Positions 3 through 36,747 of a DNA stretch of 36,899 bases are shown one piece after another (positions within the stretch are counted from its first letter, which is position 1; each line of letters starts with the position of its first letter). The position numbers were made by a program, and so were the translations under genes. Under the pieces are notes generated by a model that was given only the letters and a program-made list of their open reading frames with translations, was not told the DNA's origin and did not search any database. This DNA is from Cytophagaceae bacterium (GTDB lineage Bacteria; Bacteroidota; Bacteroidia; Cytophagales; Spirosomataceae): positions 1 through 36,899 of the forward strand of contig CANFWR010000010.1 in the NCBI GenBank assembly GCA_947450865.1. Direction: 5' to 3'.

Positions 3-80
3 GTATCCCCGTAGGGGATTCCATCTTTATTCTTTGTGCTTTATTCTTTGTGCTCTCTACTGCCCACTGTCCACTGTTAA
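3..80 (+). repeat. Dispersed palindrome-plus-heptamer repeat, copy 1
   Basis: Positions 3-40 match 34533-34570 at 37 of 38 bases. The element starts with a palindromic head (ATCCCC-GTA-GGGGAT). From position 25 it continues as eight consecutive 7-bp units that all begin with CT: CTTTATT, CTTTGTG, CTTTATT, CTTTGTG, CTCTCTA, CTGCCCA, CTGTCCA, CTGTTAA. The last unit contains the stop codon of the minus-strand PorP/SprF gene. The element may begin before the window. No transposase or known REP family is recognised; function unknown. Confidence 0.75.
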
Positions 81-1096
81 AACTTCGGACAAGCGAAGCT
101 TTGGCGGTAGCGTTGGAAGGATTTTCTTTGGCCAAAATCCCAGTTTAACACATAGGAGAAACTCAATTCGTGCGCACCGCCGGAACCTGCGCCTAAGCCT
201 GAAACCGTAAAATCATAGGAATAACCAAACGAGTACCGATTGTTTTGAATGCCGATGAGTCCGATGAGGGATTCTCGATTGGCTGTGGTAGATTCAGAGG
301 TGTTTTTATTCAAAGGTAATCCGCGGTACCAGAATCCGATGACTAAGGGGTTTAATTGTAGGTAGGTGCCTAGGTCTAATTGGCTAAAGGCGCCTTGGTT
401 TTTAACGTAAAGTGCTGGCTTGAGGCTTGTGCCCTCTGAAATCGGTAGGCTTACTCCTGCCATAAGGGCGTATTTGGGAGCGATTAAATCATCACTCGAT
501 CGAATAAGGGATTGATTAGGTCGATTCAAGTGATGTACTGATGCGCCCAGCCAATAATTTGAGTGATTCACCAATAAACCAGCTGAAATATCCACATAGC
601 TCACACGATTCACGAAGGAAACTGCGGTGGGATCAAACGTATTTCCTAGCGTACCATTTACTAAAAATGACCCCAGTTGATCGCCATAGGTTAAATGGCT
701 ATAATCTAAACTACGAAATACGCCTGAACCTTGTATTCCCATAGAAAGTAAGGTTTTCTCATTCAAATTTGCGTGGTAAGCATACTGTAGACTTAATGCG
801 GTCGTTTGAAGACTTGAAAATTGCTTATCTGAAGAGAATATTAGTCCTAGGCCACTGTTTATTTTTCCCAAACTAAGCTCTAGAGCCGCGGCTGAATATT
901 GATAATTGGCTGATTGGTTCGGCCATTGGTTGCGATGGGTGAAGTAGACTTTGTTTTGATCCTGTAAACCAGCGAAGGCGGGGGAATTAAGTAAGGGGTT
1001 GGCTAGGTTTTGGGATAATTGTGGATCTTGCGCTGAGAGCGAAAAAGCATTCAGTGACAAAATGAAATAGAAAAAAATGGATAAACGAGTCCACAT
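77..1096 (-). CDS. PorP/SprF family type IX secretion outer-membrane protein
   Basis: This 339-residue protein has a Sec signal peptide (about residues 1-23, ending in LSAQ). The N-terminal signature DPQLSQNLANPLLNSPAFAG follows directly; it is typical of the PorP/SprF family. The rest alternates short beta strands and turns, as expected for an outer-membrane beta-barrel. Family members such as Flavobacterium SprF help secrete or anchor particular T9SS type B cargo at the cell surface. The divergent neighbour carries exactly such a type B sorting domain, so the two are probably a cognate pair (inference). It is one of usually several paralogs per genome, so the porP or sprF name is not assigned. 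Its stop codon lies inside the heptamer tail of the repeat at 3-80. Confidence 0.9.
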   Translation of the reverse strand: MWTRLSIFFYFILSLNAFSLSAQDPQLSQNLANPLLNSPAFAGLQDQNKVYFTHRNQWPNQSANYQYSAAALELSLGKINSGLGLIFSSDKQFSSLQTTALSLQYAYHANLNEKTLLSMGIQGSGVFRSLDYSHLTYGDQLGSFLVNGTLGNTFDPTAVSFVNRVSYVDISAGLLVNHSNYWLGASVHHLNRPNQSLIRSSDDLIAPKYALMAGVSLPISEGTSLKPALYVKNQGAFSQLDLGTYLQLNPLVIGFWYRGLPLNKNTSESTTANRESLIGLIGIQNNRYSFGYSYDFTVSGLGAGSGGAHELSFSYVLNWDFGQRKSFQRYRQSFACPKF

Positions 1097-15859: not shown

Positions 15860-16451
15860 GGATTTTAGTTGCATACGAAGCGATGATTGCTTCATTGATT
15901 TCTGATTCCTGATTCACGCGCAAAATAAGGGGCAAACCGGTGTGATTCAAAATAAACTTTTCGCCTGAGGAATTTTCGGGTCCATTAAACACGATTCCGG
16001 CCATTGGAATTCCGTGTTGCTTTAAAATCTCGAAGCTTAAAAGCGTATGATTGATGCTTCCTAAATAGTTTTTACTCACTAAAATGACCGGTAAATTCAG
16101 GTGTTTGATTAAGTCTAGATTCGTCTGGTGATCATTCAAGGGCACCATAATTCCTCCGGCTAATTCTACGATCAAGGTTTTGTCAGTTGGAATTTTAAAA
16201 TTCTCCAGGGTGATCGTAATCCCATCAATTTCTGCTGCTGAATGCGGAGAAAGTGGTTGAGAAAGGGCATAGGTGGACGGATGAACGGTGGCCGATGGAA
16301 CCCAATTTCGGATCCAATAGGCATCTCCCGTATCGATATCCCCAGATTGAACGGGTTTCCAATAGTCTGCTTTTAAGCCAGCCGTTAAGATGGCTGATGC
16401 GACTGTTTTTCCGATTTCGGTGCCGATTCCGGCGACGATAAACTGTTTCAT
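15852..16451 (-). CDS. bioD: Dethiobiotin synthetase
   Basis: BioD uses ATP and CO2 to close the ureido ring of DAPA, forming dethiobiotin. The 199-residue protein has the expected P-loop near its start (AGIGTEIGKTVASAIL, Lys15), the WKPVQSGDIDTGD segment that contacts DAPA and Mg-ATP, and VELAGGIMVPLNDHQTNLDLI, equivalent to the VEGAGG loop of E. coli BioD with Leu in place of Gly. It overlaps bioF by 4 bp (ATGA) and bioA by 8 bp, so the three are almost certainly translated from one mRNA. Confidence 0.95.
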   Translation of the reverse strand: MKQFIVAGIGTEIGKTVASAILTAGLKADYWKPVQSGDIDTGDAYWIRNWVPSATVHPSTYALSQPLSPHSAAEIDGITITLENFKIPTDKTLIVELAGGIMVPLNDHQTNLDLIKHLNLPVILVSKNYLGSINHTLLSFEILKQHGIPMAGIVFNGPENSSGEKFILNHTGLPLILRVNQESEINEAIIASYATKIHV

Positions 16452-34329: not shown

Positions 34330-34443
34330 TTAGATCAATCACTTCTATAAATTATATGGTGAAATAAAATTCTGAAATTGTGCTTCGCAATAATTTCTTG
34401 AATTTCATTTCACCATACAATTTGAATCGAGCATTGAATCTAA
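34330..34443. repeat. 114-bp near-palindrome in the 3' UTR of the M28 peptidase
   Basis: The outer ends TTAGAT and ATCTAA are inverted. The inner part (34349-34423) has two imperfect 35-bp arms, AAATTATATGGTGAAAT... and ...ATTTCACCATACAATTT, closing on TGC-TTC-GCA. It begins 3 bp after the stop codon. It has no coding capacity and no obvious target-site duplication. It could be a MITE-like insertion or an mRNA-stabilising structure. Confidence 0.65.
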
Positions 34444-34480: not shown

Positions 34481-34508
34481 AAAAAGGGGACCTCGGTCCC
34501 CTTTTTTA
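34481..34508 (+). terminator. Intrinsic terminator downstream of the M28 peptidase
   Basis: AAAAAGGGGAC-CTCG-GTCCCCTTTTTT is a strong GC stem with a six-T tail. It is about 155 bp after the peptidase stop and is T-rich on both strands, so it may also stop transcripts from the convergent DUF4954 gene. Confidence 0.85.
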
Positions 34509-34532: not shown

Positions 34533-34619
34533 GTATCCCCGGAGGGGATTCCATCTTTATTCTTTGTGCTCTATGCTTTATTCTTTAATCCTTACTTTAT
34601 GCTCTATGCTTTAATCCTT
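34533..34619 (+). repeat. Dispersed palindrome-plus-heptamer repeat, copy 2
   Basis: The head TATCCCCGGAGGGGATTCCAT is followed by CTTTATT, CTTTGTG, CTCTATG, CTTTATT, CTTTAAT, a 5-base break, then CTTTATG, CTCTATG, CTTTAAT. The first 38 bases differ from copy 1 at one position. The tail overlaps the stop codon and last codons of the minus-strand DUF4954 gene, in the same orientation relative to its gene as copy 1. Confidence 0.75.
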
Positions 34620-36747
34620 CTAGCTTTTCTCTAAAGGATATCGCGCGCATTTTCGCCTCCTGAATAAACTCATTATCCTTCACATCACCGATCACCGCAT
34701 CGAGTTCTTCTGCGTTTCCGAACATAGCTAAGCGGAACGGATCCTCATAATCTTTCGAGCGGGAACGTTCGATACCTGTCGTTAAGAAATCTGCGGTGGC
34801 GATGGCGCGATCAATCCAAGCCGGGATGTCTGACATGGCATTCGGATTGATTTGCAATAAACCGTTCAACGCATTTTCGAATTTCTGATCCGGGTATAGG
34901 GCCGCTTGTTTTTCGTAGAATTCATGCACTTGCTTCCAGCGAGTGATTTTGCCTGATTTGACATTTTCTTTCATCTCGTGGATGACGCCTGAGGGAATTA
35001 ATTGTCCACCTAGATTTTCCCAAACTTGGATCGCAGTGGCGTTCTTTAATGTTGCTTGCAATAAATCGGAAGGAGAAGCTGATGGGTGACGCTCGGAAGT
35101 GGCTAACCATTCTTTGGCGGCATGGTAATACAATAGATCGTGGAAAATCTGATACGCCTTGTGGGCTTTAGCGATGCGCGTTCTGCGTTTCGTGTTTTCG
35201 ATGCCGGTTGCATATATGGCTAACGGATTCGAAGCATTTGCGGGGTCGTTTAACCAGGCTTTGCCATCTCCACCGCCTAGCGAGTCAGAAACCCATTTCT
35301 CCAATAATTTGATCCCTTGTAAGATTTCCGAAACCGTGTCTGGCGCTAAGAAATCAAATTCGAGCAACATGTCTTTGTCGGTTCTTTGGTCCCTGGCTGC
35401 GAATTTCCAGGCATTTCGGGCTAGGGCATACATATTGTATTGGAACCAATAGCCGGCGATGATCAATAATCCGCCTTCCGTGTCATCGTTTCCGATTAAG
35501 GAGAAGGGTAGTGGATTGTGGATTTCGCCGGGGTAATTTCCTTTCGAAATCAAGTTAAAGGAAGCGAACTTTGAGTTGTGTTTTAATGCTACAGATAAGC
35601 CAGGCCAAAATCCACGTCCCGCCTGCAATTCCCCATCCGCTCCACGCGAATTGTGGTTGGAACCGAGAGTCGCGCCTGCGGCCATATTGCTTTGGCCTTT
35701 CACAATCGCTGCGCACAAGAACGAGTTGTTGTGGTGTTGTTCGTGGGCCGGGAAAATGAGGGCATTTAAAACTTCACAACAAGAGATGGTCGAGTTACTT
35801 CCTAAGAAAGAGTTGATCAAACGGGCCCCGTATTTCAATTGCGAATGCGCCGCTAATATAAAACGAACCGCTTTTACGCCGTAGAAAATGCGGCAGCCTT
35901 CGTGGATGATACCATTTACGATTTCGCAGCCTTCGCCTATTTGGGTGGAGGCCTCTGCGTTCGAGATGATGGTTAAGTTCTTTAATTTATTTGCGCCTTT
36001 GATATAGGTGTCGGTACCCATATTGACGTCCTTGATGATCCCGGTGTTTTTGATGACGGTGCGATCCCCGATTTGGCCGTAGAAACCTCTTTTAGAAGAG
36101 AATTCCTGGATGGTCATCTCTTTGTATTTTGCTTGTAATAATTTGTCCTCCCGGTCTTGAGTCCATAAAAAGGCATCGGCTGGTTTCATTCCTACAAAAG
36201 GAATGACCTTGCGGCCGCCATTCTCGTTGCCTAATTCCATCCAAATTCGGATGCGCTCTTCTTCACCTTTCTTCACGATACCATTACCAAATTTCGCCGT
36301 CGCCGTGGTAGCTAATTCGTTCACTTGGAGGATCATGACTTCGTGACCGATTTGGTAATGAGACAATAAATTCACGCGATCGATGGCTACATTATCGCCA
36401 AAATCGCACGAAATCAAGGTGCTATTATAAAGCCCCACCGGCATGCGCAGGTTTTTGAATTCTAAGTAGCAGCTTTCCAAAATTCCGATGCGATTCACAC
36501 CGAAAAAACGGCAATTTTTCACCAAATACGGGTTGAAACCCTCTTTTACCCACAAATCTTTCCAGTTTTCCGCTTCGTTCAAATTCGCCTCCAGGATACT
36601 GATTTCACGTGGCGCAAGCGGACGATAAGACTCTAAGTCGATGTTGGAGTTGCGGTGGTCGAACTCGCTTTGGCCCTCTTCTAAAAAAGCAGGCGTTACG
36701 AAATCGAATCCAAGTTTTGAAAGTGGTTTTTTATCTATTCTATTCAT
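34597..36747 (-). CDS. DUF4954 family protein (left-handed beta-helix-like)
   Basis: This 716-residue cytoplasmic protein belongs to the Bacteroidota/Spirochaetota DUF4954 family, whose function is not established. The middle (about 70-370) has turns of the hexapeptide kind seen in left-handed beta-helix acyltransferases and sugar-nucleotide enzymes: YNSTLISCDFGDNVAID, GDRTVIKNTGIIKDVNMGTDTYIKG, SNMAAGATLGSNHNSRGADGE. A conserved His-rich segment PAHEQHHNNSF and GNYPGEIHNPLPFSLIGND may form a binding site. The C-terminal third is helical. No signal peptide is present. The start overlaps the VOC gene by 4 bp (ATGA), so they are translationally coupled. The last residues (EGLKHRA) are encoded by the heptamer tail of the adjoining repeat. 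Confidence 0.85.
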   Translation of the reverse strand: MNRIDKKPLSKLGFDFVTPAFLEEGQSEFDHRNSNIDLESYRPLAPREISILEANLNEAENWKDLWVKEGFNPYLVKNCRFFGVNRIGILESCYLEFKNLRMPVGLYNSTLISCDFGDNVAIDRVNLLSHYQIGHEVMILQVNELATTATAKFGNGIVKKGEEERIRIWMELGNENGGRKVIPFVGMKPADAFLWTQDREDKLLQAKYKEMTIQEFSSKRGFYGQIGDRTVIKNTGIIKDVNMGTDTYIKGANKLKNLTIISNAEASTQIGEGCEIVNGIIHEGCRIFYGVKAVRFILAAHSQLKYGARLINSFLGSNSTISCCEVLNALIFPAHEQHHNNSFLCAAIVKGQSNMAAGATLGSNHNSRGADGELQAGRGFWPGLSVALKHNSKFASFNLISKGNYPGEIHNPLPFSLIGNDDTEGGLLIIAGYWFQYNMYALARNAWKFAARDQRTDKDMLLEFDFLAPDTVSEILQGIKLLEKWVSDSLGGGDGKAWLNDPANASNPLAIYATGIENTKRRTRIAKAHKAYQIFHDLLYYHAAKEWLATSERHPSASPSDLLQATLKNATAIQVWENLGGQLIPSGVIHEMKENVKSGKITRWKQVHEFYEKQAALYPDQKFENALNGLLQINPNAMSDIPAWIDRAIATADFLTTGIERSRSKDYEDPFRLAMFGNAEELDAVIGDVKDNEFIQEAKMRAISFREKLEGLKHRA

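Follow-up and report, generated by a model that had tools for sequence, protein, structure and literature searches.

The intervening sequences (IVSs) of 23S rRNA in Leptospira, Coxiella and others hold an ORF for the protein IVP between complementary ends that form a long stem. They are presumed to be selfish and mobile, published examples replace rRNA tetraloops, and in Coxiella three tandem heptameric repeats, whose number varies between strains, lie at the ORF start, just upstream of the S23p ORF (PMC4990558). REP and REPIN repeats, with RAYT as their partner, are short palindromes that occur in inverted pairs with a bias towards gene ends, form lineage-specific families and also flank the partner gene (PMC3116915, PMC2817692). 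Tandem intergenic heptamers of the TAACTGA type are distributed patchily in Beggiatoaceae, cyanobacteria and some Bacteroidetes, with several families per genome; in Beggiatoaceae they stand mostly just upstream of start codons, without a known partner (PMC4679880).

The heptad elements described here resemble the 23S rRNA IVSs in having an IVP gene between complementary ends, yet they are intergenic, end in multi-unit heptad arrays of many families and have dozens of dispersed copies without an ORF. They share the palindromes, inverted pairs, gene-end bias, lineage-specific families and repeat-flanked partner gene of the REP/RAYT system, but have no Y1 transposase, a four-helix-bundle partner and 7-bp array ends. 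With the TAACTGA heptamers they have in common tandem intergenic 7-bp units, a patchy distribution and several families per genome; unlike those of Beggiatoaceae, they form inverted pairs mostly after stop codons and have IVP as a partner. As in MITEs, terminal inverted repeats are present; families replace one another at the same sites, with no clean empty site among the junctions compared. The initial annotation knew of no named family of this design in Bacteroidota, a statement that needs changing in two respects: the partner protein, IVP/S23, is that of the 23S rRNA IVSs, and heptamers beside the S23 ORF had already been noted in Coxiella (PMC4990558). We found no earlier report of a general link between IVP and heptads in the open-access literature, outside which most subscription-journal papers lie.

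The window copies and the F1 family

The window, the whole stretch of 36,899 nucleotides analysed, is contig C10 of genome G000 (2.38 Mb, 177 contigs). The two copies and their surroundings comprise the following features.

5 to 19, minus strand: head of copy 1, stem-loop ATCCCC-GTA-GGGGAT (from sequence, hairpin pattern and stem covariation across copies)
25 to 59, minus strand: F1 heptads of copy 1, CTTTATT CTTTGTG CTTTATT CTTTGTG CTCTCTA, AAAG-type on the mRNA strand
60 to 80, minus strand: outer heptads of copy 1, family F6, CTGCCCA CTGTCCA CTGTTAA, containing the PorP/SprF stop codon (77–79)
77 to 1096, minus strand: PorP/SprF gene, with copy 1 at its 3′ end
34481 to 34508, no strand assigned: terminator-like hairpin (AAAAAGGGGACCTCGGTCCCCTTTTTT) on the inner side of copy 2, read directly; the layout recurs in other copies
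34535 to 34549, minus strand: head of copy 2, stem-loop ATCCCC-GGA-GGGGAT (from sequence, hairpin pattern and covariation)
34555 to 34582, minus strand: F1 heptads of copy 2, four units
34595 to 34608, minus strand: two further F1 heptads of copy 2, overlapping the DUF4954 stop codon (34597–34599)
34597 to 36747, minus strand: DUF4954 gene, with copy 2 at its 3′ end

Positions 3–40 and 34533–34570 differ at one of 38 bases, the 37/38 identity reported initially, and both copies do reach the stop codon of a minus-strand gene (TTA at 77–79 and at 34597–34599), which in each case falls within the heptads. The description of the tails stood only in part. The eight CT-starting heptamers of copy 1 (25–80) are present but belong to two families, F1 first and then F6, that abut in register, making this copy a composite. 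Its F1 part comprises four to five heptads by inspection, and at the place orthologous to its outer heptads G020 carries F5 heptads and G007 F2-type repeats. The units of copy 2, taken to be strictly 7 bp, are four F1 heptads, a short interruption (TTAATCCTTA) and two more F1 heptads. On the mRNA strand the head of copy 1 reads ATCCCC-TAC-GGGGAT, a C(UNCG)G-type loop, and TCC lies next to the head on the gene-facing side (GGA on the mRNA strand). In copy 2, AAACATTTCTGAATAC (mRNA strand) precedes the head on the inner side; read on the opposite strand, it is the recurrent GAAATNTTT-like motif. G022 and G024 have the stem CTCC/GGAG at the orthologous site, a compensatory change.

The assembly is broken at copy 1, whose left side could be read because the last 149 bases of contig C61 are the first 149 of the window contig. 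The end of C3 and the start of C151 likewise share a copy, so repeats break the assembly. Two further repeats were seen in the window: a long imperfect palindrome just left of copy 2 (34354–34417; TGGTGAAAT...GTGCTTCGCA...ATTTCACCA), and a short 7-bp tandem repeat at a gene boundary (15896–15915; TGATTCC, 2.9 copies), unrelated in sequence to F1–F6. Comparable palindromes, which share a TTGTGCTTCGCAATAA-like apex but differ in the rest of the stem, occur at further gene ends, for example in G007 between orthologues where G020 carries F2 heptads, so a second class of hairpin at gene ends may exist alongside the heptad elements.

The dispersed element recognized in the window proved larger than first described, with about 62 F1 heptad arrays in the genome. 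BLASTN of copy 2 against the whole genome gave 58 matches, not just the two copies of the window; the hairpin pattern gave 30 matches versus 1 for its reversed control, and the heptad pattern 200 overlapping matches versus 3 for its control. Because of the BLASTN count and the near-zero pattern controls, the F1 matches are not due to chance. Our array table covers stretches around the matches, not every base of the genome, and lists 64 arrays, two of them double-counted via contig overlap. With 58 matches and arrays at unrelated genes, the view that the copies are remnants of one duplicated segment was ruled out. On the mRNA strand F1 copies follow one order: the stop codon, (CAT/CAC/AAT)AAAG about four times, (A/T)NKGGAATC, then a hairpin or else a terminator straight away, and after that a motif near TGTGAAATNTTT. 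Stems found with the hairpin pattern included CCCC/GGGG, CGCC/GGCG, CCGC/GCGG, CTCC/GGAG and others. The exact F1 head pattern had no match in the named genome collection.

Inverted anatomy and placement at gene ends

The initial annotation saw one arm only; as read from the sequences, complete F1 elements are inverted pairs, consisting of purine-rich (NNYAAAG)n, KGGAATC, a UNCG-type hairpin, usually a terminator, and complementary heptads. Eighteen array pairs ran from purine arm through centre to pyrimidine arm and none the other way round, with an inner distance of 42–106 bp; 28 of the 64 arrays were single and unpaired. In the predicted fold, the arms form an outer stem around the head hairpin and terminator (mean z = −8.3 versus dinucleotide shuffles), and two thirds of the purine arm pairs with the pyrimidine arm. 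Such long predicted stems would be candidate RNase III substrates. Among 45 distinct heads not running straight into an A-run, variable stem positions covaried: 33 were paired versus 11.7 with partners shuffled, and 35 versus 17.5, with all four pair types present. Head loops are mostly TNC with C-G closure, which reads C(UNCG)G as RNA and C(GNA)G on the opposite DNA strand.

The proposed preference for gene ends was supported, with 35 of 45 stop-nearest arrays within 40 bp of the stop codon; eight arrays lay nearest a start codon. Constant orientation held as a tendency, since the purine strand was in sense in 39 of the 45 stop-nearest arrays, and is not absolute. This polarity arises partly because complete elements are inverted pairs. 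Among 53 classified arrays, 27 were in convergent, 23 in co-directional and 3 in divergent settings, and 23 of 143 intergenic regions were convergent in an array-free sample. We also considered period 7 as a general property of gene ends and rejected it: almost none was found in a sample of contigs without F1 matches, although this sample was picked array-free and so gives no unbiased rate; unbiased rates come from the 400-kb scans and the flank measure in G007 and G020 (below).

Heptad families and their IVP partners

Relatives hold at least five more heptad families, all with period 7: with F1 (NNYAAAG), these are F2 (AGAGTAK), F3 (GGTRAAT), F4 (AAAGNNC), F5 (TAGTCRN) and F6 (CAGTNNN). In 400-kb stretches we found 6 arrays of 7-bp units in G007 and 16 in G020, and none with any other unit length between 5 and 13. 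Of the longer lags, 14 and 21 are simply multiples of 7, and lag 15 gave 1 and 2.

Comparison of orthologous sites shows, at the level of sequence, that closely related species differ through turnover of heptad-type repeats at gene ends. At its 3′ end the DUF4954 gene carries F1 in G000, G020, G022, G024 and G013, F2 in G007, G002 and G015, and F3 in G042 and G008; the convergent neighbour ends in the same family, inverted, in G013 and in all alleles with F2 or F3. Between G007 and G020, with a median protein identity of 96% (279 orthologues), both arms were swapped together for another family at common intergenic sites. Heptads also lie in the reading frame of a TonB-receptor-like gene, close to its start and after a cobalamin-riboswitch-like leader (both identified by eye), and their family differs between G007 and G020. 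They lie near the N terminus of the orthologous gene at L215 (G020:C3, ~112950–113190) and L195 (G007:C1, ~1634510–1634600) and translate to 7-residue peptide repeats.

Genes matching PF05635 (23S_rRNA_IVP; NCBIfam TIGR02436, 'four helix bundle protein') have same-family inverted repeats on both sides, and each IVP subtype in the genus has its own repeat. The F1-IVP gene of G000 (G000:C130:1558-1908) has a complete F1 element, head included, on either side. With one measure used for all genes, lag-7 arrays occupied both 350-bp flanks of 27 of 40 genus IVP genes versus 3 of 335 genes in G007 and 3 of 327 in G020. The seven IVPs without heptads have other repeats, namely GTCCGGAG units or palindromic AGTC units. 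Twenty further IVPs, from species with and without F1–F6, all had heptads in at least one flank (20/20), many with new motifs (for example, TTAGGTA, ATGTAGA and CGTTGGA). The IVP ORF was found in master copies, and dispersed copies such as those in the window are without it. The IVP loci studied in detail (ysxC-hemE and others) lie in spacers between protein genes, not in an rRNA gene; the genomes are mostly drafts and gene calls are simple ORF calls. Master copies differ in architecture: F1 and F2 have a complete inverted element on each side, F5 and F6 one arm on each side (L130 3′-5′ flanks, L341, L343). One subtype (L239, L242, L246, L250, L254) is flanked by palindromic units such as TTAGTCGCTGCTTCGCAGCTTAGTC instead of heptads, and another by GTCCGGAG/GTCCGAAG units.

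The Coxiella IVS ORF is described as decaying, whereas the IVPs here are under purifying selection (dN/dS 0.03–0.17, with dS near saturation in some pairs). The F1-IVP model (pLDDT 93) matches the S23 structures 2RLD and 2GSC and has a more distant match in Avd from the Bordetella phage retroelement (4DWL; TM 0.78); the DivGenRetAVD profile gave weak matches in 2 of 16 IVP members. To our knowledge, IVP (S23, 'four helix bundle protein') has no assigned function or catalytic activity, although structures were solved some twenty years ago. Its likeness to Avd of diversity-generating retroelements was compared at the level of fold only: Avd works with RNA and a reverse transcriptase, and no TR/VR pair or reverse transcriptase is known for the IVP elements. 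Avd is essential for retrohoming and is encoded by most known diversity-generating retroelements (PMC10053308).

The association extends across phyla in the genome sequences. In a scan of 84,980 species genomes, 80 IVP loci were found, from Bacteroidota, Patescibacteria, Omnitrophota, Acidobacteria, Alphaproteobacteria and others, and a lag-7 array lay within 350 bp of IVP in 41 of them versus 33 of 574 control windows of the same geometry elsewhere in the same loci (5.7%, P = 6 × 10−23). Other unit lengths from 4 to 13 reached 9% at most near IVP across phyla. Upstream and downstream arms of one locus matched inverted (score of at least 16) in 47 of 79 loci versus 3.5% for arms of different loci. 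IVP identity and flank k-mers were correlated across phyla (Mantel r = 0.48), which is not proof, as close relatives share the locus. Arrays of the IVP's own family 0.6–3 kb from the gene were found in only 3 of 10 loci in other phyla.

At the ysxC-hemE site, the IVP subtype agrees with the repeat type (F5, F6 or GTCCGGAG) in 15 of 15 IVP-bearing alleles, with at least eight changes on a three-gene tree and with sister species that differ. Because adjacent IVP and heptads are physically linked, this co-switching by itself shows a cassette, not action in trans. Action in trans was tested with genome-wide counts, which related to the resident IVP to different degrees; arrays flanking the IVP gene are part of these counts, and the P values ignore phylogeny. 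F5 pattern matches numbered 82–243 in five F5-IVP genomes versus 0–55 in nine others with an IVP at the ysxC-hemE site (P = 0.0005), and four of four F5 sister contrasts (G020/G007, G015/G002, G024/G008 and G023/G011) went in the predicted direction. F1 matches numbered 66–177 with F1-IVP versus 14–64 without (P = 0.012), F6 counts were weakly related (P = 0.03), and F2 counts did not track the resident IVP. In eight genus genomes without a PF05635 match, F1, F2, F5 and F6 arrays never went beyond a single match; six of the eight had solo TAGGTAA hairpins at the ysxC-hemE site. F1 arrays are also common in G020 (99% complete) and G007, where no F1-IVP was found. Given this, the untracked F2 and the weak F6 relation, dispersed arrays can therefore outlive or precede their partner.

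The F1-IVP locus itself has IVP with F1 in G000, G013 and G024, a related IVP with F2 in G008 and G002, only a solo F3 pair in G007 and G020, and no element in G022, whose allele is possibly a deletion remnant (CTTTATTCTTTA). At the loci compared we saw no transposition event, target duplication or clean empty site.

Competing explanations and significance

We favour the reading, with a probability of roughly 0.55, that the heptads belong to a two-component mobile element akin to the IVSs, in which a master encodes IVP and dispersed copies, among them the two in the window, lack an ORF; the mobility of the heptad elements is inferred. The autonomous form would be an IVP gene (PF05635/TIGR02436) between inverted arrays of one heptad family, for F1 the locus G000:C130:1558-1908, and the non-autonomous form the inverted heptad pair alone, with purine arm, KGGAATC and UNCG-type hairpin, often a terminator, and pyrimidine arm. 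The preferred sites of settlement would be the ends of convergent genes, whose transcripts may tolerate a long folded 3′ UTR or use it as part of the terminator. IVP, with its Avd fold, may bind heptads of its own family as folded RNA or single-stranded DNA and promote the copying, insertion or spread of elements that carry them, perhaps with host enzymes. On this view, the 23S rRNA IVSs would have arisen, as a special case, by entry of such an element into a loop of rRNA. Insertion may plausibly be aimed at hairpin loops, given that IVSs replace tetraloops and that the ysxC-hemE site is itself an inverted repeat.

The chief competitor, which we consider unlikely, is a post-transcriptional regulon in which IVP is an RNA-binding protein, the 3′ UTR heptads are its sites and the arrays at its own gene serve autoregulation; protein and sites would co-evolve and mobility would be unnecessary. 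The sense purine strand after stop codons (39/45), the stable folds with a covarying head hairpin and purifying selection on IVP all fit such a regulon, as does the work of Avd relatives in an RNA-protein particle (PMC10053308). It is harder to reconcile with whole families, both arms included, being swapped at orthologous sites between species at 96% median protein identity, with heptads in frame within genes and in divergent promoter regions, or with array-bearing gene ends that appear functionally unrelated. Less probable again is that the elements are 3′-end structures only, terminators or mRNA stabilizers between convergent genes whose heptads keep the arms complementary, with a secondary IVP link: the convergent share (27/53 versus 23/143 in the array-free sample), the terminator hairpin inside many elements and the single family in both arms would follow, but the heptad flanks of IVP genes across phyla, the exclusive unit length of 7 and the unpaired arrays (28/64) would be left unexplained.

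Neutral minisatellites, made and homogenized by slippage and template switching at hairpins and tolerated or attracted by IVP genes, seem improbable to us. By inspection of the array table, the two arms of an element have their units in different orders, as expected from slippage, and the mirrored order of template-switch correction is absent from most pairs. Local slippage, however, would yield site-private units, whereas a small unit set recurs at dozens of sites with the same head, and no other unit length appeared in the 400-kb scans. Together, these three alternatives each cover part of the observations, and none covers the period, the IVP link and the turnover at once. A REP/RAYT system, with palindromic repeats moved by a Y1 HUH transposase, was rejected as very improbable. 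The initial suggestion of a REP-like element holds in kind, since the elements are small, palindromic and dispersed and occur as inverted pairs at gene ends, with compensatory changes in the head stem-loop and a partner gene flanked by the same repeats. The RAYT-type transposase it pointed to was lacking: none of the nine genomes with F1 (G000, G002, G007, G008, G013, G015, G020, G022 and G024) had a PF01797 match, and the matches were confined to genomes without F1. When a REP foot of the GTAG/GGAG type was examined, heads were found to be preceded by KGGAATC, with GTAGG in some copies only.

The two-component mobile element thus remains our preferred account, and the pairing of IVP with heptads suggests that it has been overlooked. 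More tentatively, at somewhat below even odds, IVP/S23 proteins may be the trans-acting partners of widespread transposase-less mobile elements with subtype-recognized 7-bp array ends, of which the rRNA IVSs and many bacterial heptamer repeats would both be products. The subtype-matched link between IVP and 7-bp arrays across many phyla joins the puzzles of IVP function, the origin of 23S rRNA IVSs and bacterial heptamer repeats, and makes them testable by a simple binding assay. It may also explain why searches for genes that neighbour repeat arrays such as CRISPR pick up IVP (PMC3936711, PMC10910872).
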